Shown here: in pieces, positions 26,444 through 43,021 of the stretch
Layout: the number at the start of each line of letters is the position of its first letter
Numbering within the stretch: the stretch's first letter is position 1
Assembly (NCBI RefSeq): GCF_013112245.1
Contig: NZ_WVRN01000001.1
Location: forward strand, 98,501 to 162,500
Length of the DNA: 64,000 bases
From: Ruegeria sp. HKCCD4315
GTDB taxonomy: Bacteria; Pseudomonadota; Alphaproteobacteria; Rhodobacterales; Rhodobacteraceae
Direction of reading: 5' to 3'
Made by a program: the position numbers and the translations under genes
Notes under the pieces: model-generated
What the model was told of the DNA's origin: nothing
The model's database searches: none
The model's input: the letters and a program-made list of their open reading frames with translations, nothing else

Positions 26444-26944
26444 ATGAACAAGAATGTGCTGACAACATTGGCTTTGTGTTGTGCAACCGTTCTTCATGCC
26501 GCTGGGATGGAACGGTGGGGTGAATCCGGGGACTGGACAATCCTGATTGATCCCGAAAAGGGAAATGGCTGTCTTGCTTGGAAACCTTTTGAAAATGAAA
26601 TGACTGTTGAAATCGGCGCGGCACCCAATCAGGCTGGCGGCTTTTTTGCAGCCTATAATCCGGCCTGGGTGCAGATCGAGGACGGGGCGACCGGGATCGT
26701 ACAGTTCGATTTTGGTGATGCAAGATTCGAAGGCGAGGCGGTTGGAGTCTTCAAGAATGGCGTGCCCGGCGGCTACGCCTTTTTCGACAACCCGGCGTTT
26801 GTAACCGAGTTTGGAAAACGCCAGAGTGTTACGATCATTGGCGAAAGCGGGGCTGAGGTTGAACTCGATCTAAGCGGGTCTGCAAAAGCCATTGAAGCCG
26901 TTCTGGCGTGTCAGGCCGAACAGCCGGAACCACTGAAGAACTAG
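26444..26944 (+). CDS. Secreted protein of unknown function
   Basis: A 166-residue protein with a probable signal peptide (NVLTTLALCCATVLHAAG). The mature part has a beta-rich look with W and G residues at regular intervals (WTILIDPEKGNGCLAW). Only two cysteines remain in the mature chain. CGGAG precedes the ATG by eight bases. The gene converges with the large AsmA gene. No family was recognised. Confidence 0.72.
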   Translation: MNKNVLTTLALCCATVLHAAGMERWGESGDWTILIDPEKGNGCLAWKPFENEMTVEIGAAPNQAGGFFAAYNPAWVQIEDGATGIVQFDFGDARFEGEAVGVFKNGVPGGYAFFDNPAFVTEFGKRQSVTIIGESGAEVELDLSGSAKAIEAVLACQAEQPEPLKN

Positions 26945-26955
26945 GTGGCGTCCGA

Positions 26956-29700
26956 CTACTGCAATTGATTGATGTCCGGCACACAGGGTTGCCTGTCGGC
27001 AGGCATAGCATCAGCGCCTTCCGGGGCCTTGTTTCTGGACCCGCCCACATCCAGCTTGAACTTTGGCGACGAAAGCTGGCCCGTCACATCAAAGGGCCAA
27101 GCGCTTCGGGACAGGGGTTTGCCAACGCGCCGAGGCTCCGCTCTGAGCGCTATGCTATCGTTCAGCCAGTCCACTTGTCCTCTGGCCACCAATTGAACTG
27201 ACCCCGTTTCAATGACGATGGAGTTTGAACTGACTCGCCCGGCCTGAATTTCAACCGGAGCAACCACGCAAGTGATGTCGGTGTAGCCCTGTCTGAACTC
27301 TTCTGAAAACAGCCAAGGGAAAATGCCCAGCCCCGCCAGTTCCAATAGGCTGGTACTGATGTAACCCTGCGACATCGACAAAGACGCATTACCGCGCATG
27401 GAGTTGATGAAGGCCTTGCCCGAGGCGGTACTGCCAGAAACGTTGAACTTACCGCTCAAACGTCCATAGGCATCAATACCAATTCCCAACTCATCAAGGA
27501 TCTCACCGAATTCCCATCCCGAAGTTGATCCCGACAATGAAAGCCAATCAGGTGAGTCAATCAGGTCCATGACCGCACGCAGGCTGAAGTTTCCGCCGCC
27601 ATAAGCCATCTGGAGAGGGCCGAAATCCACGGTTCCGTCTTTTGCAGACAGTTGGCTTGAAACAGAAGTTACGCCTTGCTGGCCTACAATCTCTTTGAAA
27701 TCGATTTGTACCTCGACGTCAGCTTCTCGCAGCACGCGCTGCACATCCAGAAGATCGGCAGGCTTCCCTTTTTCCTTTGGCAACACCAAGGGCTGGACGT
27801 CTGTCTCTTTCGGCAAAACCAAAGGCTGAACTTCGGTTTCAGGTTCTTTTGATGCCTCGCCTACCAAGCTTTTCAGTTGGTCCAGCACGGCAGTCAGGTT
27901 CTTCAGGTCGTTGAGATCGAGCCTCTCGCTGTTAATGTTGCCACGGACGACGGGCGAACCTTCGGGAAACCGCGCATCCAAAGCAGCAAGAAGATCAGAA
28001 GACCCGGCTTCGAACTTGATTGCGGCATCAAAGTCTTCACCCTGCCTGGAGGTTTCAGCATCGATAGCGAGTGCTCCGATTTCGACAGGTTGCAGCTTGA
28101 GCGCGGTCAGAAACTGGGCACCTTCGTCGACATCCAGTTTCACGTCGAAATCGAGACCGGCTAGCCCTTTTAGCTCGTTGACAGATAGCGCAAGATCAAG
28201 CGCCCAGAGATCAGTGTCGTAAGTAGCCGCGTTAAACCTGTTGAGTGAAACCGGCCCGCCCGCATTGGATATGTTGAAATCGGCCATGATGCCGCCGAAT
28301 TGGTCAACATAGTCGTCATCGAGGTTGGGCAAAATCAACTTAGCGGGCCCGTTCAGCACACCATCGAATGTTACGTCCTGAAGCTGAAGCAGATCAAGGA
28401 TTTCACCTTCGGCTTTCAGGACAGGCTCTTCAATTGGCCCGGCTTGCAGCGCAATGCCCAGCATGGCGAGCCGTCCGTCTGGCATGCGGCGAATACTTTC
28501 GATGGATGCTGGGCCGATTACGTCCAACCCCTGGTCAAATGCATTGGTTTGGAACAGCAACTTCTCGAATTCGAAGGAAACCAAAGATCCAACCATATGC
28601 ATTTCAAAGCCCGTGAACTTCAGTTCCTGTATACTTTTTGCTGCTGGCGGCGGCTGTCCTTCCGGATGAAGCCGCGCGTTGAAAAGCAGATCGACGCCCT
28701 GGGCAGTGTAGAGGTCATCTATTGAACCTTCAGCTTCGAGTTTCTGCCCATCCTCCAGGCTTACGGTGGTTGTAAACGCTTCGATTTTCAGAACGTCCTG
28801 AGACACGAGTTCAGCCTGTAACTGACCATTGCCTTCTAAAACGCGTTCCAGCCCGATGACATCTAGAAAATCACCGAATTCCCCGGTGTCCATCTCCAAG
28901 ATTGCGCGATAACCGCCACCTTCGTCTTCCGAGAAAGGCTCACCATCGTAGCTTACGGTCATTTCTCCGAAACTGGCCCGCGTCGTAAATGGCGCGTCAT
29001 GGGGGTAATCGCCTTCGATTTGGAAACCCTGACCGTTGACGGAGCCGGAACCAGAGACCTTCGTTCTTTTTCCATGATCCGCTTGTTCAAGAGCGAGTGA
29101 CTTTAGGTCAAACACAAACGAGAAGCCTGAGACCTTGTCGTCGATGTTTAGCCCGATCGACTTAAAGCTGACGTTCTTGTCGCTCAGAAAGTTCAGGATT
29201 CCACTGCTTTCGGTGTCGATCTCATCGATACTATCAGCGCTCGCGACGTCTTTTTGATCATCCGCCGATACTGTTTCCTCGGAAGCTGGCTCGGGTGTTG
29301 GCCCGTCTTTTCGCCAGCTTGTTGTGCCGTCTTCTGCTGTCAGAAGATTTGCTTGGAGCCCTTCTACGGCGAGATTGTCAAAATGCAGACGCCCGTTGGT
29401 CAAGGCGACAATATCCAACTCCAATTCCAACAGGTTCAATTCTACAAGAGGTGACTCCGGCATTGTCAGGCTCGGGATGACCACCCCACCGACATATATG
29501 TGACTAATGCGGCCAGGCGCGACGCTTACATCATCGTTCACCAAAAGGGGACGACCAATTTGTTCCGAAAGAACTCTTTCAACAAGGTTGCGGCGCATGT
29601 CCGAGAACATCGGAGACGCAAGCAACAACCAAACAAAAGCGACTGCTGCGAATGCGAGTAATGCGACAAGCCCAATTATTCTAAATAGCCAAACCCTCAT
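26956..29700 (-). CDS. AsmA-family envelope protein
   Basis: A 914-residue protein anchored by an N-terminal helix (IIGLVALLAFAAVAFVWLLL). The first ~100 residues (RRNLVERVLSEQIGRPLLVNDDVSV then VGGVVIPSL) and the C-terminal part (LSGKFNVSGSTASGKAFINSM, and GQLSSPKFKLDVGG near the end) fit AsmA, a relative of bridge-like lipid-transfer proteins spanning the periplasm. The beta-groove repeats between them are typical. A 12-residue segment reading ETxVQPLVLPKE is duplicated in tandem in the linker (about 27780-27840). AsmA proteins have been linked to outer-membrane lipid homeostasis. Confidence 0.88.
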   Translation of the reverse strand: MRVWLFRIIGLVALLAFAAVAFVWLLLASPMFSDMRRNLVERVLSEQIGRPLLVNDDVSVAPGRISHIYVGGVVIPSLTMPESPLVELNLLELELDIVALTNGRLHFDNLAVEGLQANLLTAEDGTTSWRKDGPTPEPASEETVSADDQKDVASADSIDEIDTESSGILNFLSDKNVSFKSIGLNIDDKVSGFSFVFDLKSLALEQADHGKRTKVSGSGSVNGQGFQIEGDYPHDAPFTTRASFGEMTVSYDGEPFSEDEGGGYRAILEMDTGEFGDFLDVIGLERVLEGNGQLQAELVSQDVLKIEAFTTTVSLEDGQKLEAEGSIDDLYTAQGVDLLFNARLHPEGQPPPAAKSIQELKFTGFEMHMVGSLVSFEFEKLLFQTNAFDQGLDVIGPASIESIRRMPDGRLAMLGIALQAGPIEEPVLKAEGEILDLLQLQDVTFDGVLNGPAKLILPNLDDDYVDQFGGIMADFNISNAGGPVSLNRFNAATYDTDLWALDLALSVNELKGLAGLDFDVKLDVDEGAQFLTALKLQPVEIGALAIDAETSRQGEDFDAAIKFEAGSSDLLAALDARFPEGSPVVRGNINSERLDLNDLKNLTAVLDQLKSLVGEASKEPETEVQPLVLPKETDVQPLVLPKEKGKPADLLDVQRVLREADVEVQIDFKEIVGQQGVTSVSSQLSAKDGTVDFGPLQMAYGGGNFSLRAVMDLIDSPDWLSLSGSTSGWEFGEILDELGIGIDAYGRLSGKFNVSGSTASGKAFINSMRGNASLSMSQGYISTSLLELAGLGIFPWLFSEEFRQGYTDITCVVAPVEIQAGRVSSNSIVIETGSVQLVARGQVDWLNDSIALRAEPRRVGKPLSRSAWPFDVTGQLSSPKFKLDVGGSRNKAPEGADAMPADRQPCVPDINQLQ

Positions 29701-29808
29701 GCGCTCCCCTATCGCCGCTTTCGCCGTTCAGTCTCTCAAAAGCAGATGTCCAACCTATCAAGTCGAACGCCGGTTCTGAACCATAGCTAAGGCAACTGGG
29801 CCGTGTCA

Positions 29809-30049
29809 CTATTCGTCTTTGATAGCCCCGTCAGTCGCTTTTATTCTTCCCATCAGTACGCTTGCCCTATTGGTAGTAGCCCCTTTGGAAGTTTGGGTTG
29901 GTCCAAAAGTCTGAACGTCATCGACCTCTAAAGTAAACGCAGCCTTCATGAGGACGGGACCATCAACAACCAGCATTTCCTTCTGCGTCGGCTCGATCCT
30001 GATTTGACCAGTTACAACGATGGGCTCGTAGACTGTCGATGGCGCTCAG
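29809..30049 (-). pseudogene. Remnant of an ABM-domain (quinol monooxygenase-like) protein
   Basis: An open minus-strand stretch of about 75 codons without a start codon. It begins YEPIVVTGQIRIEP and has VVDGPVLMKA, like the first strand and helix of antibiotic-biosynthesis-monooxygenase domain proteins. After that (from AFTLEVDDV) the similarity is lost. A TGA lies just upstream. The assignment rests on two short segments and is weak. Confidence 0.35.
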
Positions 30050-30266
30050 GAATCACTCAGGCGCATACGCACCATCTGGTTCGGAGGCGGAGGCGGTAAG
30101 CGCGCCAACTCTGGTCTTTGTCGCTGCTGCCTATGCCAAGTTGGGAAACAGGTCAGAAGCAGAAAAAACTGTCCGGGAACTTCAAGAAACCTATCCTGGA
30201 TTTGATCCACAGCAAGTGTTCTCAAACTGCTACCAAGACCCTTCTCATGCGGATACTCACGCTTGA
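30039..30266 (+). pseudogene. C-terminal TPR-like fragment, probably from an adenylate-cyclase-type protein
   Basis: The frame encodes about 75 residues containing LVFVAAAYAKLGNRSEAEKT and TYPGFDPQQVF. This is the kind of terminal tetratricopeptide segment found at the C terminus of class III cyclases in these bacteria. It has no good start and ends at TGA 30264. It overlaps the catalytic fragment in another frame, so the natural order (cyclase first, TPR last) is reversed here, which points to rearrangement. Confidence 0.5.
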
Positions 30267-30613
30267 TGGGCGCAGACGAGATTGGCGTCTTGAACGCTCT
30301 AAAAGCACTTCGTTCGGAGCTGTTCGATCCGCAGGTCGAGAAACATCATGGTCGCATCGTTAAGCTAATGGGTGACGGAACGCTCGTTGAGTTTGCTTCG
30401 GTCATTGATTCAGTGAATTTCGCGACTGATATCTAAGCGAAGCTGGCGAAGCGAAACGAGGACCTGCCGCCCGAAAAGCGACTTGAACTGAGGATCGGCA
30501 TAAATCTTGGCGACGTGATGATCGACGGCGATGATCTTTACGGTGACGGTGTCAATGTCGCAGCACGACTTGAGGAGTTAGCAGAGCCGGGCAGCGTTTG
30601 CGGTGATGGCTAA
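30242..30613 (+). pseudogene. Class III adenylate/guanylate cyclase catalytic-domain fragment
   Basis: The frame reads GYSRLMGADE, then GRIVKLMGDGTLVEFAS and RIGINLGDVMIDGDD with GDGVNVAARLE, all hallmark motifs of class III cyclases. It is interrupted by TAA at 30434-30436 and ends at TAA 30611. The metal-binding Asp that should precede GYS is replaced, and everything after GSVC is lost. It is a clear, non-functional remnant. Confidence 0.8.
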
Positions 30614-30891
30614 AACCCAAAACGGCTGTTCATTCGTAGTTGCGTCTTCCTACAAGGAAGAGCGGGAAATCGAAGCTTCAGCTTCGATGGCAGACAACCT
30701 ACCTTGGTGCCGTCAACTTCGGATGCTCGACAATGAGTATGCGGTACTAGCAAGGGTAATAAGATCGGTTCAGGTAAGGCGCTCGACGTTATCTTGGACA
30801 ACTGGTCTCTCAAAATTGCCTTAGAACTGTTTACCTCTGACTAGGGATGAAATTTTTCGGCCGGAGTGAACTTTTGATTATGGATGAGCGT

Positions 30892-31749
30892 CTAAGGAAG
30901 CGCTTCGAACCAGTCGAGCACCGCGTCTCGCCAGCCCTCTGGAACTCCGTGCCCACCTTTGGTGACTTTAAACCGGATGGAGCCGGCAGCGCAGTCCATC
31001 CAATCCTTCTGCATCGAGCCATCGTCGCCAAAGCTGTTTTCCGCGCTTCCCAAGCAGGCGTTTTCGCGGCGCCAGACATCCAAGCCCTTCATGACGTTAC
31101 CCTGGTGAAAATCGACACCCTCCCATGTCAGCTCTCGGCCTTCGAACGGCACCATTCTGTCTTTGAAGCCATGTACGTGAAACAGGTGAACTGGCGCATC
31201 GCACTCAGTGGTCATAGGCTCCCAGAACGCCCCAGCCGCAGCGGCAAAGCCTCTTGCCATCTCTGGCGCTTGGCATGCAATGTCCCAGGCCATCGAGCCG
31301 CCGCGGGAGAAGCCTGCGATCAGTATTCGCGACGGGTCAATACCAAAGCGCTCCACCGCGTCGGCGCGCACGGCGTTGATGAAGGCGACATCATCGCGCT
31401 CCAGGTCATACCCGTCAGCTACGCCCCAATCGAGGTCTTTGACATTAATACTGGGCTGCCCGCTCGGCATAATCACAGCGTAGCCGCGCCGGATGAAAGG
31501 GTCGACATAGGCGGCATTCTGGATCATCGCCTTACCAGACCGTCCATAACCGTGCAGCCAAATAACAGCGGGCGGATCATCTAGAACCTCTGGCATGGCC
31601 ACGTAGTACTCACCGCTTTCCAGTTTGCAAGGCGCATCTGGCACGCCACACTCTCCGTAAGAAGCATGGGCAGCGTTCGGCTTCGCAGCAGTCAGAACAA
31701 TGGCAATACCGAGCGTCAAAATGCGATCGCGCGTTTCAGGTCGCATCAT
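30892..31749 (-). CDS. Secreted alpha/beta-hydrolase esterase (PHB depolymerase / LpqC-like)
   Basis: A 285-residue protein with a signal peptide (ending NAAHAS). Catalytic elements are visible: nucleophile elbow GFSRGG, acid in HVHGFKDRMVPF, and histidine in KGGHGVPEGW close to the C terminus. The oxyanion segment is WLHGYGRSG. Cysteine pairs (CGVPDAPC and later ones) suggest disulfides. This fits the feruloyl-esterase/polyhydroxybutyrate-depolymerase-like family of small secreted esterases; the substrate is not predictable. Two ATGs, 31749 and 31746, are possible starts. Confidence 0.85.
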   Translation of the reverse strand: MMRPETRDRILTLGIAIVLTAAKPNAAHASYGECGVPDAPCKLESGEYYVAMPEVLDDPPAVIWLHGYGRSGKAMIQNAAYVDPFIRRGYAVIMPSGQPSINVKDLDWGVADGYDLERDDVAFINAVRADAVERFGIDPSRILIAGFSRGGSMAWDIACQAPEMARGFAAAAGAFWEPMTTECDAPVHLFHVHGFKDRMVPFEGRELTWEGVDFHQGNVMKGLDVWRRENACLGSAENSFGDDGSMQKDWMDCAAGSIRFKVTKGGHGVPEGWRDAVLDWFEALP

Positions 31750-31937
31750 AAGTGTACATCTGTCGCTAGATCACAGAAATCATAGCACAGCGTTACGCAT
31801 CTCCGAAGGCACAGGCCTAAATGTCTGGGAACACCTCTACCGCTTATGTCATAGGCTACGAGTGATCACTCCGAACCCTTAACACCCAAACTCGCGCCGT
31901 GATATGTTGAGCCTATCATCAATGCCGAGACAACTTC

Positions 31938-32369
31938 ATGACGCTATCTGATCAAATTAAGCGACTTTACCACGAAGTATGGAACGCGGCGGACACCGAC
32001 TGCGCCCGAGAAATCATACACCCGGAGTTCGATTTTCGTGGGAGCCTTGGGCCGAAACGCTCGGGTCCGGATGAGTTCATTCGTTACACGGAAGAAGTTC
32101 GAGAGGCTCTTCCGGATTTTCAATGCAATATCGTTGAAATCGTCGATGCCGAAGAAAAAGCCGCTGCGCGAATATCCTTCGTCGGCACGCACCATGGTGT
32201 ATTCTTCGGGGTAGACGGAACGCAGCAACGGATCGAATGGTCCGGGGCGGCGTTCTTCACAATACGGGAACAAAAAATCGGGAGTCTCTGGGTTTTGGGT
32301 GACATTGATTCAATCAAGAGACAATTGAATGCCCACCCAAAAGTTGCGTTTCTAGATCCATATGCATAG
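31938..32369 (+). CDS. SnoaL-like ester-cyclase family protein
   Basis: A 143-residue single-domain protein with the cone-shaped SnoaL-like fold, seen in the pattern IKRLYHEVWNAAD, then FDFRGSLGP and GTHHGVFFGVDGTQQRI. Members labelled 'ester cyclase' act on polyketides, but most bacterial ones are of unknown function. The ATG at 31938 has only a weak ribosome-binding site. The next gene starts 102 bases on and could be co-transcribed. Confidence 0.82.
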   Translation: MTLSDQIKRLYHEVWNAADTDCAREIIHPEFDFRGSLGPKRSGPDEFIRYTEEVREALPDFQCNIVEIVDAEEKAAARISFVGTHHGVFFGVDGTQQRIEWSGAAFFTIREQKIGSLWVLGDIDSIKRQLNAHPKVAFLDPYA

Positions 32370-32471
32370 CGGCGTCTTTGGTTGCGAAGGTAGACCTCAA
32401 CGTGACGTGCGCTGCAAGGTGGGTAGTTTTGATGGATTAAGGGCGCTATCCCCCGCGGGAAAGGACATGCT

Positions 32472-33098
32472 ATGAAACAAAATACCAAGTCCCGCCGTAA
32501 ACTTTTAGGCGGCATAGTAGGATTAATGGGTGTCGGTTCGATAGGTGCAAGGGCCGCTGCGGCTGTGCTAACACCAAGCGCCGCAGAAGGGCCGTATTAT
32601 CCAACGCCAGCCATGCGGACGCCCGATACAGACAATGACCTCGTTAAGATCAGAGGACGTGTCGAAGACGCCGGCGGCGAAGTCTTTACACTGCGTGGGA
32701 AGCTTATGCGGACCAATGGACAACCCCTTGCCAGACATCGCATCGAAATCTGGCAATGCGACATGGATGGCAACTATATGCATCCGCGCGACCGTCGCAG
32801 TGTCAATTTTGATCAGGCTTTCCAGGGCTTTGGCCATGACGTAACCGACAACGGCGGGAACTATGTGTTTCGTACGATAAAACCCACGATTTACCCAGGA
32901 CGTACACCACATATTCATGTAAAGGTGTTTGACGGAAGTCGCGAGCTGTTGACGACGCAGTTTTACATTAAAGGTCATCCGAACAATTCCCGCGATGGGT
33001 TATTCAACCGCATGTCCAGGGCAGAGGCCGCTGCAGTGTCTATGGAATTTTCTCTGGGCGCGACTGGAACTGAAGCGACCATCAATGTTGTCGTCTAA
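32472..33098 (+). CDS. Intradiol ring-cleavage dioxygenase-like protein with Tat signal
   Basis: A 208-residue protein starting with a twin-arginine type leader (SRRKLLGGIVGLMGVGSIG). The core has the iron ligands of protocatechuate 3,4-dioxygenase-type enzymes: Tyr in GNYMHP, Tyr in TIYPGRTPHIH and the two histidines of that motif. The fold's family marker AEGPYYP is present near residue 39. Exported, short members of this family are common, but their substrates are mostly unknown; they need not cleave catechols. AAGGA precedes the ATG. Confidence 0.83.
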   Translation: MKQNTKSRRKLLGGIVGLMGVGSIGARAAAAVLTPSAAEGPYYPTPAMRTPDTDNDLVKIRGRVEDAGGEVFTLRGKLMRTNGQPLARHRIEIWQCDMDGNYMHPRDRRSVNFDQAFQGFGHDVTDNGGNYVFRTIKPTIYPGRTPHIHVKVFDGSRELLTTQFYIKGHPNNSRDGLFNRMSRAEAAAVSMEFSLGATGTEATINVVV

Positions 33099-33329
33099 AG
33101 AGGAAGCTTCAGTCCGTAAAGTTGAAGTTGCACAGCTTGCTGTCAGAGGTCCGCTTTAAAGTTGCTAGCGCCCTAGCCCACCACGCCATTCGCAGAACAC
33201 GCCGGAATCGGTGGCGATGCGTAAGGTTCGAAACGGTGATCTTTCCGCAGATACATCGTCCCAATTGGGCGAGCAGGACACCAAAACCCTCTTACCCACG
33301 ACACGTCGTCGAACTATTTCTCAATAAAC

Positions 33330-34862
33330 CTAAAGCTGAGACCCGATTGGCAAAATACTCAAAAAACCGGCAACTATGTGGTCCCAGGCTGATCCCGTCG
33401 GCTCGGATTGATATTCAAGAACTTCGCCATCATTGCTTCGTGTCGTCCATTTAAGCTGACCAGCTTGCTCAAGGGTTACACTGTAAGTGTATGCGGGTAG
33501 CGCGTCGTCCAACGCACCCATGGTTTGTGTGGTCAATGCGGGCGAGTCTATCAGAATTCCCATCTCTGTGTTGATTTTGACTGACCTCGGATCCCAATTG
33601 AACGATCCCACGAACAAGTACCGGTCATCAACGGCGAATGCCTTGGAGTGTAAGCCGGATCTGGACTGAGCCCAGTTTATGCCACGACGCTGGACTTGAT
33701 AGGCGTCGGGTCGCAACTCGTAGAGTTCCACTCCTCCGCGCAAAAGCGCTCGGCGTTTTTTGGCATAATGCGCGTAAACGGGTGCAACGTCGTTGGAGGC
33801 CAGCGAATTGGTTACCACCTTTACCTCGACACCACGACGTTCAAGTTCGGTCAGCCATTTCACACCGTTGTTGCGTGGTACGAAATAGGCAGAAACGATA
33901 TTCACCTCACTGCTGGCATTCTCAAAATACGGAAGCAATTGCGATGCAAGAATGGGGTCTGAAGCTTCAAGTCCGGCCGCTTTTGAAGGCGGATCGGCAT
34001 AAAGCTTCGCGGGCAGCCAATCCAGTGAAAAGGCCCCATCTGCGAAGTTCTCTTGTGCTGACTTTCTAAGGGCCACGCCATACTGTGTTTGCTTTGCTTC
34101 CTCGACCAGTTCATTCAACCTGCTTCGCGCATCGCTCAGGTCAAAATCTTCGGGCTCTCCCACAACCACGCGGGCGGGGACTGCGAATTCGCTGTTCCAA
34201 TATGCGTCGAAGCTCTGTGAAACTTCACGCACAACAGGTCCAGCGGCCAACACGTCCAGATCGGCGTAGTTCATTTCTTTCCGCGCAAGAAAATACTCGG
34301 CACCGATATTCCTTCCACCCACAATCGTAAACACGTTGTCAGCTGTCATGGATTTGTTGTGCATTCTGCGATTGATGCGCTTGAAGTCCGTCAGTCCAGC
34401 GACCAGCAGGCTTTGGTCCCGCCAGAACGGATTGAACAGCCTGATCTCAATGTTTTTGTGATGGTCCAATGCGGCGGTCATCGCGTCGTAGCTGGACGTA
34501 TCCATGTCATCCAACAACAGCCGGACACGAACCCCCCGATCTGCGGCCTGCAACAGACTGGCTGCAAAAAGATGTCCTGTCGGGTCGTCATGCAGAAGGT
34601 AGTACTGAGCGTCTAACGTTCTTTCGGCGGCGGCGGCCATCAACAGCCGTGAGGCAAGCGCTTCTTCGCCATCACTGATCAGCTTGACACCTGACCGGCC
34701 GTCTTTGGGATCCCCCAGGCGATTGGTCAACTGACTCAGAGCCGTGCCCGAATAGGCGGGCAATGCAGCTGATACCGTCTTTTCGTAAGTGCGGGTTTTA
34801 GGAGCACAAGCGGCAAGTACCAGCGCGCTCCAAACACAAATCGCAAACTTCCAACGCGCCAT
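33330..34862 (-). CDS. Phospholipase D family lipoprotein, ClsC-like
   Basis: A 510-residue lipoprotein (lipobox LVLAAC, Cys19) with two HKD motifs. The first is HNKSMTADN with GGRNIGAEYF, the second HSKAFAVDD with GSFNWDPRS. The middle part (TLDAQYYLLHDDPTGHLF) matches the ClsC-type protein at 15562-17103, including the shared phrase VREVSQSFDAYWNS / VDEVSQSFDAYWNS. The two are paralogues with different membrane attachment (helix versus lipid). GGAGG lies before the ATG at 34862. Probably acts on phospholipids at the periplasmic face. Confidence 0.86.
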   Translation of the reverse strand: MARWKFAICVWSALVLAACAPKTRTYEKTVSAALPAYSGTALSQLTNRLGDPKDGRSGVKLISDGEEALASRLLMAAAAERTLDAQYYLLHDDPTGHLFAASLLQAADRGVRVRLLLDDMDTSSYDAMTAALDHHKNIEIRLFNPFWRDQSLLVAGLTDFKRINRRMHNKSMTADNVFTIVGGRNIGAEYFLARKEMNYADLDVLAAGPVVREVSQSFDAYWNSEFAVPARVVVGEPEDFDLSDARSRLNELVEEAKQTQYGVALRKSAQENFADGAFSLDWLPAKLYADPPSKAAGLEASDPILASQLLPYFENASSEVNIVSAYFVPRNNGVKWLTELERRGVEVKVVTNSLASNDVAPVYAHYAKKRRALLRGGVELYELRPDAYQVQRRGINWAQSRSGLHSKAFAVDDRYLFVGSFNWDPRSVKINTEMGILIDSPALTTQTMGALDDALPAYTYSVTLEQAGQLKWTTRSNDGEVLEYQSEPTGSAWDHIVAGFLSILPIGSQL

Positions 34863-35130
34863 AGGCTTCCTCCGACCTCCTATGGCCTAGGTGACTATGC
34901 CAGCGCACGCGATTGCAAGAGTGTTCTTTGAAGCCTGAGGTTGTTTGGGTCGTCAGCGTTGGTTTCGCACAACCCTCAACTGCCAAGTTATTGGTTCGCG
35001 ACTTAACGCAACACCGTCTCAATCGTTCCCCGGCAGAACCCAAATGCGTCGAAGCGCTGGGGAATGCGTGCCTGATGACAGCGGCGTCGCTTAACCAAAA
35101 CACCGGACGCGGGCGTTGCCTTGGCCTGGG

Positions 35131-36234
35131 TTATATCCAGAACGTTTCCTTGACCGTGGCCTGTCGGTCACCGGTTGGGGTTAGGACCGTCAGAACAGAA
35201 CCAGCATCCCAGTGTCCGGCATCGACCATGCCAATAGCGACATTGGTTTTAAAATCCGGTGACCAGGCAGCGGACGTGACCTGACCAACCCGTTTTCCAT
35301 CCTTGAGCAGTGGCCAAGCTGAGCGGGCAGGTGATACGGGATCACCGGGAATTGAAATTGCGCGGATCTGTCGGGCCAGACCGGATGCGGCCTCGCGCGC
35401 AAGTGCTTGCTTGCCTATGTGGTCACTGTCTTCGCCCGGTTTGCAGAATTTGCCCAAACCACACTCCAGCGGGGAGTTTTCCATGGTCATATCGTTACCA
35501 TAGCTCAACAGCCCGCCTTCGATCCGTTCGATCAGGTTTGGACATCCCGGACGAACGTTCAGATCCATTCCGGCTTCGAACAGCGCATTCCACAGCGGCA
35601 TCCCGTAGGCACCGTTTTCGACATAGATCTCAAACCCACCCTGTTTCGAGTAACCAGAGCGTGCGACCAAAAAAGACGTGTCCTGAAAAACCATCCGTTT
35701 GTAACGGAAAAAGCGAATGTCGCGCACTTCGTCTCCAAAGACGTGGGCCATCAGATCATCCGACTTTGGCCCTTGAACGGCCAGCGGTGAAACGTCTGGC
35801 TCAAAAACCCGCACATCCATGTCCGCGCCGACTGCAAGGCCCTTGACCCACAGCAACAGGTCGCTGTCGGCGATTGAGATCCACCAGCGATCCGCGCTGT
35901 GTTTGATCGCCACCGGATCGTTCAGCATGCCGCCGTTTTCATCGACAATTGGAACGTAGTAACATTGATCTTCCTGCATTTTTTCCAGGTTGCGGGGGGT
36001 CAACCGCCGCATCAGACGACCTGCATCCGGCCCATTCAGCTCGATCTGCCGCTCACAAGACACATCCCAGACCTGCACATGAGATTTGAGGTGCCGGTAA
36101 TCGGCCTCGACGCTCTCGAACATTGTGGGCAGCAGCATCCGGTTATAGACGGTGTAGGCAGTAACGCCTTTATCCTCGACCCCTTCGGAAAAAGGTGTTT
36201 GGCGCAGGCGGCGGGATTGGGACAGCAGACGCAT
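35131..36234 (-). CDS. dmdA: Dimethylsulfoniopropionate demethylase (DmdA family, GcvT fold)
   Basis: A 367-residue protein of the aminomethyltransferase (GcvT) fold with the features of DmdA: SRRLRQTPFSEGVED at the start, TVYNRMLLP, then VWDVSCERQ, YYVPIVDENGGMLNDP and EPDVSPLAVQGP. It has GLLSYGNDMT with the ECGLGKFC segment near residue 280. Length and motif order agree with roseobacter DmdA, which transfers a methyl group from DMSP to tetrahydrofolate, leaving methylmercaptopropionate. The start at 36234 lies one base after the stop of the acyl-CoA ligase gene, so these genes are tightly coupled. Many DmdA-like paralogues exist, so a related methyl donor is the alternative. Confidence 0.8.
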   Translation of the reverse strand: MRLLSQSRRLRQTPFSEGVEDKGVTAYTVYNRMLLPTMFESVEADYRHLKSHVQVWDVSCERQIELNGPDAGRLMRRLTPRNLEKMQEDQCYYVPIVDENGGMLNDPVAIKHSADRWWISIADSDLLLWVKGLAVGADMDVRVFEPDVSPLAVQGPKSDDLMAHVFGDEVRDIRFFRYKRMVFQDTSFLVARSGYSKQGGFEIYVENGAYGMPLWNALFEAGMDLNVRPGCPNLIERIEGGLLSYGNDMTMENSPLECGLGKFCKPGEDSDHIGKQALAREAASGLARQIRAISIPGDPVSPARSAWPLLKDGKRVGQVTSAAWSPDFKTNVAIGMVDAGHWDAGSVLTVLTPTGDRQATVKETFWI

Positions 36235-36235
36235 T

Positions 36236-37849
36236 TCAAAGGTCCATTGCTTTGGCGCGGTCCCGAAGTTGGAACTTCTGGATTTTGCCTGTGGAAGTTT
36301 TGGGAAGGGACTCGAAGACAACGGCTTTGGGCGCTTTGAACCCCGCCAGATGGTCACGGCAGAAGGCGATGATCTCGTCAGACGTTGTTTCGGAACCTTC
36401 GCGCAGTTCGACAAAAGCGCAGGGGACTTCTCCCCACTTCTCGTGGGGCATCGCCACAACCGCTGCGGCCTGAACTGCTTCATGACGGTACAATACGGCT
36501 TCGACCTCGACGGACGAGATATTCTCGCCGCCCGAAATGATCACGTCCTTCAGGCGGTCGCGTATTTGAATATAGCCGTTTTGGTGAATGACCGCGCCGT
36601 CGCCGGACCAGAACCAACCGTCTTCGAAAGCTGTCGTGGTGGCCGCTGGGTCCTTGTAATAGCCTGCCATCACCGTGTTGCCGCGAATGGCGATCTCGCC
36701 TTGGGTCGAACCGTCACGCGCAACCGGTTCTCCGGTTTCGCGGTCGATCACTGTGACCTGTTCGACCATTGGAAAGGCAATACCTTGCTGTGCCTGCAAT
36801 TCCGCTTGTTCAGCCGGGCTGAGTTCATCCCAGTCGTCCTGCCAAAGACACTGAGAGATGTGGCCGTAGGTCTCTGTCAGCCCATAAACCTGCATGACGT
36901 CAAACCCCATTGCACTGGTCTTTTCCAGCACTGAAGGTGGTGGTGGTGCACCCGCGGTCAACACACGGATTGCAGGATCAAATGGGGTCGCGCCACTTTC
37001 GGCTTCGGCCAGCATCTGCAGCACGATAGGCGCGGCACCGAAATGCGTTACGCCATGGGTGCGGATCGCGCCCAGAATGCGGTCAGCGGCTGGAGCGCGC
37101 GTGAACACAACTTTTGCCCCAAGCATAGCCATCAACCAAGGGTGTCCCCAGCCATTGCAGTGGAACATCGGCACCACCGACAGATAGACGGGATAGGGGG
37201 GCATCTGCCATGCCGTCCCGGTGCCAAGAGCCATCAGATAAGCGCCGCGATGGTGATAAACCACGCCTTTTGGGCGCCCGGATGTGCCGGACGTGTAGTT
37301 CAACGCAATGGCATCCCACTCATCTTCCGGTAATTCGATCGACAGGGGCGCGGCTTTGGTCAGCGCTTCATAGGTCTGACCACCAAGGCTCTCTCCTGTA
37401 ACAGCAGGATCAGCGATTTCGACCACCGGCAGAGTTCGACCGAGCAGGTCGAAAGCTTTGGACAGAAGCGGCACAAGCTCCCGGTCCACGATCACCAGCT
37501 TGGTGTCCGCGTGATCCAGGATGTAGGCGATGGTTTCCGGTTCCAGACGCGTGTTCAGCGTGTTGAGCACTGCGCCGGTCAAAGGCAGGGCAAAGTGCAA
37601 CTCAAAGAGCTCTGGGATGTTCGGGCTGAGCACCGAAACAGTGTCGCCTTTCTGCACGCCAAGTTCGACCAGCCCACCGGCAACTGCGCGAATGCGGTTT
37701 GCAGTTTCGGCCCATGTTCTATGGATATCGCCATAAATCACTGCTGTTCGCGCACCGTGTAAGCTTTCGGCGCGGTTCAGGAAGGACAATGGTGACAAGG
37801 GGACATGGTTCGCCCGCGTCTTCTGAAGAGCCTCGAAATGATGGCGCAT
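36236..37849 (-). CDS. dmdB: Acyl-CoA synthetase, DmdB-like (methylmercaptopropionate-CoA ligase)
   Basis: A 537-residue AMP-forming acyl-CoA ligase. The P-loop motif YTSGTSGRPKG (about residue 180), the YGLTETYG motif, and the late K-V/D-I-I-S-G-G-E-N-I-S-S-V-E motif are intact, with the lysine of SLPKTSTGKIQK close to the end. Such enzymes activate medium-size acids. Placed between the DmdD-like and DmdA genes it most likely forms methylmercaptopropionyl-CoA. The start at 37849 was selected because the family begins here; it is 16 bases from the stop of the hydratase gene. A medium-chain fatty-acid role is possible instead. Confidence 0.82.
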   Translation of the reverse strand: MRHHFEALQKTRANHVPLSPLSFLNRAESLHGARTAVIYGDIHRTWAETANRIRAVAGGLVELGVQKGDTVSVLSPNIPELFELHFALPLTGAVLNTLNTRLEPETIAYILDHADTKLVIVDRELVPLLSKAFDLLGRTLPVVEIADPAVTGESLGGQTYEALTKAAPLSIELPEDEWDAIALNYTSGTSGRPKGVVYHHRGAYLMALGTGTAWQMPPYPVYLSVVPMFHCNGWGHPWLMAMLGAKVVFTRAPAADRILGAIRTHGVTHFGAAPIVLQMLAEAESGATPFDPAIRVLTAGAPPPPSVLEKTSAMGFDVMQVYGLTETYGHISQCLWQDDWDELSPAEQAELQAQQGIAFPMVEQVTVIDRETGEPVARDGSTQGEIAIRGNTVMAGYYKDPAATTTAFEDGWFWSGDGAVIHQNGYIQIRDRLKDVIISGGENISSVEVEAVLYRHEAVQAAAVVAMPHEKWGEVPCAFVELREGSETTSDEIIAFCRDHLAGFKAPKAVVFESLPKTSTGKIQKFQLRDRAKAMDL

Positions 37850-37865
37850 CCCGATTCCGCCTGAC

Positions 37866-38675
37866 TTAGCTGTTTGGCCGCACACGGGCGGCAGTTTTAT
37901 TTGCAAAGGCTTCAAGGCGCGCCCGAGCGGCGGGTTGGGTGTTGACCACTCCGCCTACCACAGCCTCGGCATAGGCTGCGTCCATGCCTGACATGTTGTT
38001 CAAGTGGCTGATCGCCGAGCAGATTGCAAAATTGGTCAGCGGCAGGTTCTGCGCGATTTGTTCTGCCAGCTCCATCGCCTTGGCCATGCTGCCGCCGTCT
38101 TCGGTGATGTATTGCGCCAGCCCCAGATCGACGGCCTCTTGCCCCTGGTAAACGCGACCCGTCAGGATCATGTCGATCATGCGATACTTGCCGATCATGT
38201 CGGACACTCGGATTGTCGCGCCACCACCGGTGAAAATCCCACGTTGGCCTTCAGGCAAGGCGAAATAGGTGCCGGGGTCAATGACCCGGATATGCGCCGC
38301 ACTGGCAAGTTCCAGCCCTCCGCCCACGACCGCACCTTTTAGTGCAGCGATGATCGGCACACCGCCATACTCCATCTTGTTGAACGCTTCATGCCAGCGC
38401 AGGCAAACATGCATGAAGTCATCCGGGCTGCGGTCGGCCTTCCAATGCTCGACCAGATCAAGACCCGCGCAGAAGTGGTCACCTTCACCAGCAAGCACCA
38501 CAGCTTTGACACCGGCCATACGGGCACCACTGAAAAAGCGGATCAGCTCTTCGATAGTGGCCACATCCAGCGCGTTGCGCTTTGAAGGACGGTTCAATGT
38601 AACGATATACAAGCCGTTCTCGCGCTCTGAAATCGCCAGGTTCTCATATGTGTCGGGGTTCACGACGTGATTCAT
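37866..38675 (-). CDS. dmdD: Enoyl-CoA hydratase family protein, DmdD-like (methylthioacryloyl-CoA hydratase)
   Basis: A 269-residue crotonase. The CoA-binding segment [10 protein letters not shown] and the oxyanion/catalytic segment [14 protein letters not shown] (about residues 114-127) are complete, and [16 protein letters not shown] holds a second catalytic Glu. The overall sequence resembles the roseobacter DmdD proteins that hydrate methylthioacryloyl-CoA to release methanethiol and acetaldehyde. The ATG at 38675 follows AAAGGA. It is 21 bases downstream of the DmdC-like gene and 16 bases upstream of the ligase gene, all on one strand. Confidence 0.82.
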
Positions 38676-38696
38676 GGGTCGGGTCCTTTGGAGGAG

Positions 38697-40460
38697 TTAT
38701 TCGGGGAAATGCGCGTCAAGCAGGCTGCGCGCGCCCAGCAGGATACGGCTGTGTTCTGTGGTGCATTCGGGCAGAATGTGTTGTGCAAAGAAAAGCGCAG
38801 TCGCGATTTTCTGAGCCATGAATTGAGCGTCCTGCTCGGCGTCCAGTGATGATTGCGCAGCCAAAGCGCCCTTTGCCAGTTTCCAACCTGCCGCCAGGGT
38901 TCCTGCAAGCATAAGAAAGGGGACAGAGCCGGCAAATGCTGCGTCGATGTCCTTGCGGCTGTTTTCCAACAACCAGTTCAGCGCCGATTCAAACGCTTCG
39001 CGTGCTTGCGCAAGGCTTGCACCTATCGCTTGAGCATTTGCGTCACCTCTCGCCAGTTGTGCTTCGGTTTCAGCAATCCGGGCAGCAAAGAGACGGGCGG
39101 TTTCGCCACCGTCGCGCATCACCTTGCGCCCTAAAAGGTCGTTGGCTTGAATGGCGGTGGTGCCTTCGTAAATCGGTAGAATACGGGCATCGCGATAGTG
39201 CTGCGCGGCACCGGTTTCCTCGATAAAACCCATACCACCGTGGATCTGAACACCTAACGAGGCAACCTCGACTGCGCGCTCTGAACAAAAGCCTTTGACC
39301 AGCGGAACCATGAATTCGGCCAGAGCAGCCATCTCTGGATTGTCCTGATGGTGTGCGATGTCCAGCAACCCCGCAGTCGCCGCCGCCATTGCGCGCCCAC
39401 CTTCGGTCAGGCCGCGCATCCGCATCAGCATGCGGCGCACGTCCGGGTGTTCGATGATGGCGACAGCATCTTTGGTCTGACCGTTGACAGGGCGGCTTTG
39501 CACGCGCTCACGCGCATAGGTAAGCGCACGTTGATAGGCCCGCTCTGACGTCGCAATACCCTGTACACCAACGGAAAATCGCGCAGCGTTCATCATGATG
39601 AACATGTATTCTAGCCCGCGATTTTCTTCGCCGATCAAGAATCCAGTGGCCTGTTTGTACTCCAAAACAGCCGTCGGGCTGGCGCGAACGCCCAGCTTGT
39701 GCTCAATGCTCACGCAGTTGACTGTGTTTTCGGTCCCGACCGTTCCATCTGCGTCGACCAGTTTCTGCGGTACGATAAACAGGCTCAAACCTTTTGGCCC
39801 GGCAGGTGCGTCAGGCGTGCGGGCCAACACCAAATGGATGATGTTCTCGGTCAGGTTATGGGCACCATAGGTGATGAAAATCTTGGTGCCCGACACGTCA
39901 TAGCTGCCATCCTCACGCTGCACCGCCTTTGTTGCCACCCGGCCCAGATCGCTGCCCGCTTGCGGTTCAGTCAGGTTCATCGTGCCAGACCAACGGCCTG
40001 CAATCAGCGGCTCAAGATAAGTGGCTTTCTGTTCGTCAGACCCGGTCAGCAGCAATGCCTCAATGGCCCCGTCGGTCAGCAAAGGGCAGAGGCCAAAGCT
40101 CATATCGGCGGCATTCAGCATCTCGACCGCGGCCGCGCCGACGGTCTTCGGCAACCCCATGCCACCATATTCCACTGGGTGAGTCAGGGCTTGCCATCCC
40201 ATTTCGACAAACTGAGCGTAAGCCTGGGCATCGCCTTCAGGCATGGTCACGCGCCCGTTGTCAAACCGGGCCCCCAGCGTGTCGCCGATATGTGACAAGG
40301 GTGCGATCTGCTCGCTGCAGAACCGGGCATAGCCTTCCAGTACAGCGCCAATATCGGCCAGGTCATAGTCTGAATACACTGCGAAGGAAGACACCTGTTC
40401 CCAATGAGACAAATGCTCGACGCAAAACATCAAATCCTGAACGGGCGGCTGATAGGACAT
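38697..40460 (-). CDS. dmdC: Acyl-CoA dehydrogenase, DmdC-like (methylmercaptopropionyl-CoA dehydrogenase)
   Basis: A 587-residue FAD-dependent acyl-CoA dehydrogenase with the long C-terminal extension of the DmdC/AidB-like group. MNLTEPQAGSDLG and ITYGAHNL lie in the FAD/substrate region. The catalytic Glu should be in the YEGTTAIQ motif (about residue 430), and QIHGGMGFIEE precedes it. The C-terminal ~130 residues are helical. DmdC oxidises methylmercaptopropionyl-CoA to methylthioacryloyl-CoA. It is the first gene of the four-gene operon; an AraC-type regulator gene lies divergently 112 bases away. Confidence 0.85.
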   Translation of the reverse strand: MSYQPPVQDLMFCVEHLSHWEQVSSFAVYSDYDLADIGAVLEGYARFCSEQIAPLSHIGDTLGARFDNGRVTMPEGDAQAYAQFVEMGWQALTHPVEYGGMGLPKTVGAAAVEMLNAADMSFGLCPLLTDGAIEALLLTGSDEQKATYLEPLIAGRWSGTMNLTEPQAGSDLGRVATKAVQREDGSYDVSGTKIFITYGAHNLTENIIHLVLARTPDAPAGPKGLSLFIVPQKLVDADGTVGTENTVNCVSIEHKLGVRASPTAVLEYKQATGFLIGEENRGLEYMFIMMNAARFSVGVQGIATSERAYQRALTYARERVQSRPVNGQTKDAVAIIEHPDVRRMLMRMRGLTEGGRAMAAATAGLLDIAHHQDNPEMAALAEFMVPLVKGFCSERAVEVASLGVQIHGGMGFIEETGAAQHYRDARILPIYEGTTAIQANDLLGRKVMRDGGETARLFAARIAETEAQLARGDANAQAIGASLAQAREAFESALNWLLENSRKDIDAAFAGSVPFLMLAGTLAAGWKLAKGALAAQSSLDAEQDAQFMAQKIATALFFAQHILPECTTEHSRILLGARSLLDAHFPE

Positions 40461-40572
40461 TCCAGGCTCTCTGTCGGAAACTATGGGTTTACGTCATTTA
40501 CCTGTCGACCGATTTGCCGATAAGCTCATATTTTGCCAAAATACTATCCGATCACGCCACTCTGAGGTTCCT

Positions 40573-41586
40573 GTGACCCGTCATGACCCTATCTCGCTGA
40601 CGACCGTCTCAGCAGAATTCATTCAGGATTGGCTGGACGCACTTAGGTCCCGTTGCACCCCGGAAGAAATGACTTCACTGCTAGAGCGCGCTGGTCTTCA
40701 GGCCGGTCCAATGGCACCAAATCATCGTGTTACCCTCAATGAAATTGCGCAGCTTTACCAGCTTGCTGCGCCTGAAACCGGGGACGAAATGATGGGGCTT
40801 TGGAGCCGCCCGATCCGGCCCCGCGCCCTGCAGCATCTTGTGACGGTGCAGCGCGGAGCAAGCAGCCTGACCTCGGCCCTTTATCGTTTCTCGACGTTCT
40901 GGAATCTGCTTTTGGATGACTTTTGTTTTGACCTGCGCAGCAGGCCAAATGAGGTGAAACTGGCTTTGGTGCCTTACTTGGGCGAAACCCAGCCGCAGCG
41001 CTTTGGCCACATGTTGATTCTGAAACTGGCGCACGGTTTGTTGTCCTGGCTCAGCGGGTCGGAAACGCCAGTTCAATTGGTTTGCTTTGCCTTTCCCCGC
41101 CCGGAATTCGCTGCGGACTATTCGGTTGTCTTCCCGTGTCCTGTCGAATTCGACGCCCCGCAAACCAGCATTCGTTTTGACCCTCGCCAATTCACCCGCC
41201 CGATCACCCGCAGCCCTGAGGAGGCGTCGGTGTTTCTTGAGCGCGCGCCGCTGGATTGGATATTCACGGGCTCCCGGGTGCATACAAACAGCCTTCGCGT
41301 CCGGGCTTTTCTTTACGGAGCAACATGGCAGTCTTGCCAGCTTACGGATGCAGCCCGAGCGTTGAAAATGACGCCTCGGACATTGAACAGACGCTTGAAA
41401 GTCGAAGGAACATCCTTTCAGGACATCAAGGATGCCCTGCGCCGTGACATCGCGATCCGTGCACTACAGCAAAGCACGGACAGTATCGATCAAATCGCCT
41501 TTGACACGGGCTTTTCGGCCCCTGCGAATTTCCACAGAGCGTTCCGAAAGTGGACAAACCGGACACCGGGATCATACCGGATGTGA
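40573..41586 (+). CDS. AraC-family transcriptional regulator next to the dmd-type operon
   Basis: A 337-residue regulator with an arabinose-binding-like domain (about residues 10-200) and a C-terminal AraC double helix-turn-helix (DAARALKMTPRTLNRRLKVE then IDQIAFDTGFSAPANFHRAF). The best start is GTG 40573, with TGAGG six bases upstream; the frame stays open for another 30 codons, but these lack a Shine-Dalgarno sequence. Its divergent placement next to the DmdC-like gene makes it the likely regulator of the operon. The effector may be DMSP or a degradation product, which is inference. Confidence 0.87.
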   Translation: MTRHDPISLTTVSAEFIQDWLDALRSRCTPEEMTSLLERAGLQAGPMAPNHRVTLNEIAQLYQLAAPETGDEMMGLWSRPIRPRALQHLVTVQRGASSLTSALYRFSTFWNLLLDDFCFDLRSRPNEVKLALVPYLGETQPQRFGHMLILKLAHGLLSWLSGSETPVQLVCFAFPRPEFAADYSVVFPCPVEFDAPQTSIRFDPRQFTRPITRSPEEASVFLERAPLDWIFTGSRVHTNSLRVRAFLYGATWQSCQLTDAARALKMTPRTLNRRLKVEGTSFQDIKDALRRDIAIRALQQSTDSIDQIAFDTGFSAPANFHRAFRKWTNRTPGSYRM

Positions 41587-41686
41587 GCTCGATTTCTGTG
41601 GGAAAACGCTTTTTTCTGGGTCGTCAGAGAAAGGCAGAAAACCCGTCATGGGCGGCTACCGTCGCCGTATCTGCCAGTGGTGATGC

Positions 41687-42673
41687 CTAATAACGACGAT
41701 GCACTCTTTTTCGAGTAATCACGTTCTTCTCTTTCTGGCGCTCGCGCAAAAAGACAAACAAACCAGATCCCAAGATCAGCACGATACCAGTCGCGACAGG
41801 CAGATTTGGCAGTTCGCCCCAAATCGCCCATCCCCAAAACACTGCCAAAGGAAGACCGACATATTCGAACGGTGCCACCGTGGCGGCGTCGGCCATACGG
41901 TAAGCCTGACCCAGACAATACCCAATGATTGCCGAATTGAACCCCAGCCCGACAAACAACCATCGATCAGTGCCTTCTGGCCAAACCCAAGCCCTTAGCA
42001 AGAAGATCAAGCTTTCATTTTCGAATGCATCGGCAAAGCGCCCGTCCCCTGCCACAGACCAGAACAGCAAGCTGACAACGATAAAACACGCCTGAATATA
42101 GACAGCCATCGCTGATGCTTTGGATTTGGCACCAAGCAAGCGGGTGAGCACGTTGTTGAGGGCATAGGTGAATGCTGCCACTACGGGCAGGGCATACATC
42201 AAAAGACTGACGTCGCGCGCGCCACCAGCTTCCCATGGGCGGGTCATAATTGCCACGCCGAGGAAACCCACAATCACCGCGCCGATGCGCATGGGGCCAA
42301 CTTTTTCCCCAAGCAAGGGAATGCTGAGCAAAGTGATCATCAGTGGCGCAACGAAGAATACTGCGGTTGCTTCGGCCAGAGGCATGACAGCCAATGCCGT
42401 AAAGAATGTCAGATTGGCAACAACGATGAGAACGCCGCGCAAAAGATGAAGCCCGGGTTGATCGGTTTTCAAGATGCGCCAACCGCCTTCCATCTGCACC
42501 AAAGCCAGGCTGAACCCGATTCCGATCAGTGATCTGGTGAATACCATTTGATGCAGGGGGTAACCGCCAGACAGGAACTTGATCAGCATATCGTTGATAG
42601 AAATCGCCAAAATTCCTATCAGAATGAATGCAATACCTGCTGTTGGGTTTTGCAGCTTTACGTCTGCTGTCAT
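41687..42673 (-). CDS. EamA-family (DMT superfamily) transporter
   Basis: A 328-residue membrane protein with ten hydrophobic helices in two EamA repeats (GIAFILIGILAISINDMLIKFL in repeat 1 and YCLGQAYRMADAATVAPFEYV in repeat 2). The E-x-x-x-x-P/A-L-x-x-V/G-E pattern is present in both halves. The start at 42673 has AAAGGGC before it; an alternative ATG at 42688 is possible. It is unrelated in detail to the EamA protein at 14372-15331. A role in export of small metabolites is assumed from the family only. Confidence 0.85.
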   Translation of the reverse strand: MTADVKLQNPTAGIAFILIGILAISINDMLIKFLSGGYPLHQMVFTRSLIGIGFSLALVQMEGGWRILKTDQPGLHLLRGVLIVVANLTFFTALAVMPLAEATAVFFVAPLMITLLSIPLLGEKVGPMRIGAVIVGFLGVAIMTRPWEAGGARDVSLLMYALPVVAAFTYALNNVLTRLLGAKSKASAMAVYIQACFIVVSLLFWSVAGDGRFADAFENESLIFLLRAWVWPEGTDRWLFVGLGFNSAIIGYCLGQAYRMADAATVAPFEYVGLPLAVFWGWAIWGELPNLPVATGIVLILGSGLFVFLRERQKEKNVITRKRVHRRY

Positions 42674-43021
42674 GAGGTGCCCTTTCATGGGGCCACTAAC
42701 ACGTGCCAGCAAACGGGTCACGTCACTTTGCGACGTTCTTTGGTCGCCGCGTGCTGAAGTGAAACTCGATTTGCATTGAGCGTAATGGCGACTTTGTTTT
42801 TGAGGATTACCTAACCCGGCAGAATGGCCATGTCATTGAAACCCCAAGTCCCGCGAGATTTAGTCGCTTGGGTCAGTTCTGAAGTGGCACCCCTAGGGTG
42901 ACGCGCAACGCATTGGATCTGATTTTAAGTACCTGACTTCTACGTAACGGAAGTGTGGCAAACTCAGCCACGTTGCCTCTAACGTCACAGGGCACAATGA
43001 CAATAGGGGCGGTGCAGTCGG
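42674..43021. other. Intergenic region
   Basis: About 350 bases between the divergent transporter and hydrolase genes. No gene or clear repeat was seen. It should contain both promoters. Confidence 0.5.

Follow-up and report, generated by a model that had tools for sequence, protein, structure and literature searches.

Does a single operon of Ruegeria sp. HKCCD4315 encode the complete demethylation pathway of dimethylsulfoniopropionate (DMSP), and is the unit dedicated to this substrate? An earlier note on a stretch of 64,000 nucleotides (contig NZ_WVRN01000001.1, positions 98,501 to 162,500; hereafter the window, whose own numbering is used below) had proposed such a unit in the order dmdC-dmdD-dmdB-dmdA, serving DMSP or a related sulfonium or betaine. 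We found that this is a real, complete DMSP demethylation operon and a further case of a published type. Very probably, it functions as a DMSP demethylation cassette in a genome that also has an ordinary dmdA-acuI locus. The reading as one DMSP demethylation unit is supported by the gene families, by the clade of its DmdA and by a matching operon in Phaeobacter inhibens. The features of the locus are as follows.

40460-38697, minus strand: dmdC, first gene of the operon, 3-methylmercaptopropionyl-CoA dehydrogenase of 587 amino acids (aa)
38675-37866, minus strand: dmdD, methylthioacryloyl-CoA hydratase, 269 aa
37849-36236, minus strand: AMP-forming acyl-CoA ligase of the DmdB1-like subfamily, 537 aa
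36234-35131, minus strand: dmdA, DMSP demethylase, 367 aa, end of the operon
40573-41586, plus strand: divergently oriented gene of an AraC-family regulator with PF12625 and PF12833, about 337 aa when read from the probable GTG start at 40573
40535-40559, minus strand: predicted AraC operator of 25 bp, beginning about 98 bases before dmdC
40480-40508, minus strand: promoter-like pair TCGACA-17-CATAGT before dmdC, weak and at chance level

The coordinates of the four minus-strand genes and the gaps of 21, 16 and 1 bases between them, as given in the earlier note, were confirmed. The divergent araC and a second dmdA elsewhere in the genome do not appear in that note. Longer mechanical starts of the open reading frames (ORFs), giving a ligase of 559 aa and a DmdA of 450 aa, run into the preceding gene, and the 367-aa dmdA start agrees with the 367-368 aa found in most homologues. 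dmdC, dmdD, the ligase gene and dmdA would be read as a single transcript. The promoter scan of the region gave 2 promoter-like sites at 2.4 expected, and the terminator scan gave 7 terminator-like sites at 5.8 expected, four of them inside genes on the operon strand. A search for RNA families in 33000-43000 found none.

Profile searches and searches against the sequences of solved structures bore out the four gene families. The 367-aa protein scored 610 bits against the curated DmdA equivalog NF009133 (cut-off 410) and 363 bits against the Pelagibacter ubique DmdA structure 3tfh. The DmdC protein has acyl-CoA dehydrogenase domains above the Pfam cut-offs and matches 8png (478 bits) and 6ijc (432 bits), the latter of which we take to be a DmdC structure. 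It is 67% identical to the orthologue of a Ruegeria pomeroyi strain, which likewise lies beside dmdD (locus L079). The DmdD protein scored 489 bits against 4izb, presumably a DmdD structure, and keeps Glu121 and Glu141 of that chain; we assume Glu141 to be catalytic, together with Glu121. It is 85% identical to the gene product of the R. pomeroyi strain and 83% to that of a P. inhibens plasmid gene annotated as dmdD. DmdC and DmdD of R. pomeroyi are characterised enzymes (PMC5395565, PMC4334477), and E121 of DmdD is named in PMC5395565. The ligase passed the acyl-CoA synthetase subfamily NF006020/PRK08162 with 778 bits (cut-off 677).

In the mechanism that we propose, the AraC regulator would bind a 25-bp direct repeat and activate the dmdC-dmdD-dmdB-dmdA transcript. 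DmdA would transfer a methyl group of DMSP to tetrahydrofolate, leaving methylmercaptopropionate (MMPA), which the ligase would convert to MMPA-CoA. DmdC would oxidise MMPA-CoA to methylthioacryloyl-CoA, and DmdD would convert the latter to methanethiol and acetaldehyde. The DmdD reaction also yields CO2.

We assessed the position of the demethylase in a DmdA tree of 51 rows, which included DmdA-like paralogues and GcvT. The window DmdA lies within an 18-row clade (support 100/98) of operon DmdAs from Ruegeria, Leisingera, Silicimonas and Rhizobiaceae and the plasmid DmdA of P. inhibens, the row of which (P0056) is the PGA1_RS19020 sequence from residue 2 on. The window DmdA and that of R. pomeroyi share a 38-row set with support 99/99; R. 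pomeroyi is represented by the gene of one strain, which an acuI-like gene follows and which was taken as SPO1913. Adding the P. ubique DmdA, a long branch, gives a 39-row set with support 96/84. The DmdA-like paralogues and GcvT fall outside the DmdA set, the wider 42-row split having a support of only 92/63. The protein therefore belongs inside the true DmdA clade, with the R. pomeroyi and P. ubique enzymes, and a place outside it is ruled out by the NF009133 score and the tree.

The earlier note considered the arrangement unusual. This was too strong, because an operon with the four genes in matching order was published in 2015: in Roseovarius mucosus, rosmuc_01718-01721 are dmdA, dmdB, dmdD and dmdC, probably forming one operon, and a second dmdA is present in that species as well (PMC4511512). 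PMC7487153 cites Gonzalez et al. 2019 for a conserved dmdA operon. The idea that the arrangement was unknown in roseobacters is rejected by the R. mucosus and P. inhibens operons. R. mucosus DSM 17069 (locus L041) shares with the window the gene order and the divergent araC, the identities being 78% for AraC, 85% for DmdC, 91% for DmdD and 86% for the ligase, whereas its operon DmdA belongs to another DmdA subclade and is only 67% identical. P. inhibens DSM 17395 also shares the order: on pPGA1_262, PGA1_RS19040-RS19020 are araC, an acyl-CoA dehydrogenase gene, dmdD, an AMP-binding ligase gene and dmdA. This operon, with which all P. inhibens comparisons of operon genes were made, differs in being plasmid-borne, and its DmdA shares the subclade of the window DmdA. 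The identities to the window are 61% for AraC, 68% for DmdC, 75% for DmdA and 76% for the ligase. In P. inhibens, DMSP upregulates dmdA PGA1_RS19020, and a mutant without this gene no longer shortens its lag phase when given DMSP, while the responses to betaine and stachydrine persist (PMC11306105). This support concerns the dmdA of the operon.

According to the earlier note, the steps are scattered in R. pomeroyi. This holds for dmdA and dmdB, but not for dmdC and dmdD, which are neighbours there: dmdC1-dmdD are SPO3804-SPO3805 (PMC4334477), the two numbers being swapped in a legend of PMC5395565. R. pomeroyi (strain SZCCDBG043) shares with the window the araC-dmdC-dmdD core with its 25-bp element and differs in having the ligase gene and dmdA away from this core. 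Its dmdA-acuI arrangement (SPO1913-SPO1914) is also present in the genome of the window. On plasmid pMaD9 of Marinovum algicola, a ligase gene (62% identity) directly precedes dmdA, as in the window, whereas no dmdC or dmdD is annotated within the 13 kb shown. The pMaD9 row (L148:2956-9598) holds two genes annotated for DMSP breakdown, the ligase gene, dmdA, a gene of alcohol-dehydrogenase type (acuI-like) and a gene for an SBP56 protein. A conjugative plasmid of P. inhibens carries a paralogous cluster of DmdA-like, OsmC, enoyl-CoA hydratase and ligase genes (L150:7956-12034; L153:6215-10297), in which the DmdA-like protein is 38% and the ligase 49% identical to those of the window. A DmdA-like gene of R. 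pomeroyi (379 bits, cut-off 410) also lies near a related ligase gene. The frame L154:1999-3645 gave no family match; the ORF lists of L153-L159 consist partly of antisense frames.

Several observations weigh against the assignment to DMSP; they concern a residue of DmdA, the ligase, published expression of dmdA and the distribution of the genes. The window DmdA keeps the Glu and Tyr of the folate site, SGYSKQGGFEIYV; they correspond to E178 and Y180 in the PMC7487153 alignment, the numbers being mapped from spacing. The same paper calls Trp171 key for DMSP, and the window protein has Tyr, not Trp, at this position (residues SGYSKQGG, likewise mapped by spacing). Among 120 homologues listed of 7958, this position is Tyr in 118 and Phe in 2; it is Trp in the DmdAs of the R. 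pomeroyi strain and P. ubique, and Tyr in P. inhibens PGA1_RS19020 (the region was compared without L083, L133 and L141-L144). Since homologues including PGA1_RS19020, which is needed in vivo, carry Tyr, we did not take Trp171 as defining, and Tyr as a sign of a new substrate was rejected. The residue, together with the paralogous DmdA-like/hydratase/ligase cluster on a P. inhibens plasmid, could suggest that the substrate of the demethylase and the ligase is not DMSP but a sulfonium or betaine related to it. We regard this as very improbable: the protein passes the DmdA equivalog, deletion of the P. inhibens dmdA, the product of which has this Tyr as well, removes the response to DMSP and leaves those to betaine and stachydrine (PMC11306105), and the operon contains DmdD, which is most efficient as a hydratase on methylthioacryloyl-CoA (PMC5395565).

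The ligase does not pass NF005426, the curated model of 3-(methylthio)propionyl-CoA ligases (324 bits, cut-off 822), and it is 54% identical to the presumed DmdB1 of the R. pomeroyi strain. The best matches to this model also fall below 822, with 784 bits in the R. pomeroyi strain and 803 in the genome of the window. The R. pomeroyi ligase with 54% identity is encoded downstream of TauA- and TauC-like genes, and both ligases pass PRK08162. In the updated R. pomeroyi annotation, SPO0674-0676 are tauABC (PMC4334477), and SPO0677 is named DmdB1 (PMC5395565). From the tauABC numbering and the gene order, the 54% ligase is probably SPO0677; both Tau matches are below the curated cut-offs, and tpa was not confirmed. 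Kinship of the window ligase with the PRK07008 type was rejected, as it is 33% identical to that type in this genome. In a survey of 295 genomes of the family, nearly one per genus, the ligase clade (E up to 1e-205) was present in 23. Its gene adjoins that of DmdA (within 600 bases, same strand) in 13 of these and that of DmdD likewise in 7. When DmdD was counted within 3 kb on either strand, the ligase lies beside DmdA or DmdD in 19 of the 23 genomes and has no such neighbour in the remaining 4. MMPA is the predicted substrate of the ligase.

As to expression, the dmdA of a Ruegeria strain with dmdD was not expressed (PMC13313319), and Sulfitobacter D7 showed hardly any expression of its DmdA when grown in minimal medium with DMSP (PMC9873259). 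Because of these results, the induction of dmdA by DMSP is not general.

We also determined how often the gene order recurs among relatives. The best 80 of 387 confirmed DmdD places were compared; this choice is biased to close relatives and includes some short contigs, and the classes follow our own limits of identity and distance. The gene order C-D-B-A together with araC was found again in 12 of the 80 loci; in one of them (L051) roughly 1 kb separates dmdD from the ligase gene, and in another (L036) dmdA is cut by the contig end. One further C-D-B-A locus lacks araC, its contig beginning inside dmdC (L037). Of the 71 loci in which the sequence extends at least 2.9 kb ahead of dmdD and 3 kb beyond it, 11 carry the full set. 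Partial sets are araC-dmdC-dmdD only (39 loci), araC-C-D-B (4), araC-C-D-A (2), araC-D-B-A without dmdC (1), araC-D-A (1), araC-D (7), C-D (4) and D without the others (9); in L088, of the last class, the ligase gene and dmdA lie about 4-5 kb away on the opposite strand.

In the 295 family genomes, DmdD was found in 59 (E up to 1e-90) and DmdA in 125 (E up to 1e-105). It turned out that the two are not associated, DmdA being present in 24 of the 59 genomes with DmdD and in 101 of the 236 others. In 7 genomes the two genes are no more than 6 kb apart, and in 5 of these they share a strand (all 62 DmdD places against all 27 DmdA places of the genomes with DmdD). The non-association indicates that the araC-dmdC-dmdD core probably also handles MMPA of other origin, and the 35 of the 59 DmdD genomes in which DmdA was not found suggest a role of DmdC-DmdD apart from DMSP. 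This leads to the question of whether the whole unit serves chiefly MMPA or short-chain acids, with the ligase gene and dmdA as late, optional add-ons and the DMSP flux passing mainly through dmdA-acuI. The distribution just described (39 loci without ligase or dmdA, 4 with the ligase but without dmdA) fits this idea, as do the cassette of Ruegeria sp. R13_0, which lacks dmdA and has a single copy elsewhere, and the use of fatty acids by DmdB and DmdC (PMC5395565). We nevertheless consider it rather unlikely, because the operon dmdA is intact here (367 aa) and was exchanged, not lost, in the sister lineage, and because P. inhibens requires the dmdA of its operon, which is of the same type, to respond to DMSP (PMC11306105). 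The DMSP demethylation cassette remains our preferred reading.

How would such a cassette be controlled? The mechanical ORF of AraC begins at 40483, and homologues place the start near GTG 40573, so that 112 bases separate araC from dmdC; this start follows from homologue loci other than L017-L019 and L028. araC is conserved beside dmdC/dmdD. The araC-dmdC intergenic regions have in common a 25-bp direct-repeat element in which a distance of 21 bp separates two TGKC half-sites. Half-sites spaced in this way are typical for AraC-type binding sites. The pattern TGKC-N3-WT-N2-GAWA-N5-TTGKC was perfect in 39 of 59 regions, had one mismatch in 17 and three mismatches in 3; thus 56 of the 59 have at most one mismatch, and plain base shuffles (20 per sequence) never gave fewer than 2. 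As the pattern was derived from the same 59 regions, it shows conservation, not function. In seven genomes, all carrying the cassette or the core, a perfect element was found upstream of dmdC in every case. With up to one mismatch allowed, the seven genomes had 49 sites, compared with 22 for the reversed pattern; many of the sites with a single mismatch are therefore likely noise. The sole other perfect match across the seven genomes lies on the second replicon of the genome of the window (C2:369173-369197). AraC may act as an activator responding to an inducer.

A second DmdA, 71% identical to that of the operon, is encoded elsewhere in this genome. Its gene is followed by an AcuI-family gene and has a GntR-type gene upstream. 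The AcuI-family protein scored 424 bits against the AcuI equivalog, just below the cut-off of 440, and passed the YhdH/acrylyl-CoA reductase subfamily. The identity of 71% raises the possibility that the operon dmdA is a dispensable, mere paralogue of the dmdA-acuI copy. We find this improbable, since the two copies fall into separate clades (100/98 and 98/96) and the dmdC promoter has a perfect AraC element, whereas the genome scan found none at the dmdA-acuI locus. The corresponding dmdA-acuI pair of R. pomeroyi is induced by DMSP and acrylate, not by MMPA (PMC3338564). The cassette would operate beside the dmdA-acuI locus, and the two DmdA copies are probably regulated apart.

Comparison of the trees pointed to a different history for dmdA than for the other operon genes. 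In the concatenated DmdC+DmdD tree of 61 loci, the window and its Ruegeria kin stand beside the R. mucosus-type operons in a 30-row clade (100/100), and the operons of Leisingera ANG-Vp and Rhizobiaceae lie outside it. The ligase tree agrees, with weak support. The DmdA tree conflicts: here the operon DmdAs of the R. mucosus type group with the second DmdA of that species (100/99), and the window-type DmdA joins the operons outside the 30-row clade. Constraining both groups of operon DmdAs to unite cost 228 log units (p-AU 1.4e-52); as the groups were named after the tree had been seen, this p-value is too sharp, and the likelihood gap is still large. These data indicate that dmdA was exchanged in place within otherwise matching operons. 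Probably, the window-type dmdA was there first and the R. mucosus type took its place; the opposite order may also be the case.

The location of the cassette varies as well. We compared four other Ruegeria loci of about 20 kb each with the window (matches of at least 250 bases at E up to 1e-20; at least 300 bases among the loci). The cassette from araC to dmdA was the sole stretch matching the window between 25 and 52 kb and likewise the sole one that the loci share among themselves; in L020, without dmdA, the matching stretch ends at the ligase gene. In a congener without DmdD (G043), the matches to 23.1-26.0 and 43.0-59.0 kb of the window are 2.7 kb apart, not 17 kb, which makes the surroundings of the cassette a variable stretch. 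Among the neighbouring ORFs, part of which were scanned, no transposase or integrase was found. The GC content is 57.4% in the operon, 54.3% in the window and 56-57% in three other loci of the genome, which gives no clear signal of foreign origin. The cassette resembles a self-contained module whose location and components can change.

We tentatively propose, as an idea somewhat short of even chances, that a relocatable, self-contained cassette, equipped with an AraC switch and an operator of its own, forms a second demethylation channel independent of the acrylate-linked dmdA-acuI. In this channel, DmdA would have been exchanged in place while the other three enzymes were kept; in the R. mucosus-type lineage, the incoming copy would be akin to the ordinary second dmdA. 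The ligase would represent a third, dedicated type of DmdB missed by the curated model. Compared with the known operon, the 25-bp element, the ligase clade, the dmdA exchange and the varying location would be new. In the open-licence literature, with subscription journals mostly uncovered, we found no report of these four points or of the AraC regulator. dmdA is a widely used marker of DMSP demethylation; how the choice is made between this route and cleavage is still open. Here, two DmdAs are seemingly under different regulators, one with an acuI-type gene and the other with the rest of the demethylation path, and a genome with both makes this choice testable by single-gene deletions. If the cassette moves as a unit, this would help to explain why complete demethylation is patchy among close relatives.

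The variable stretch, 26033-43019, also holds genes for phospholipase D-like and SnoaL-like proteins, a dioxygenase and an EamA transporter. Two proteins of the phospholipase D family (15562-17103 and 33330-34862) are 39% identical and are encoded on opposite strands, 16 kb apart.

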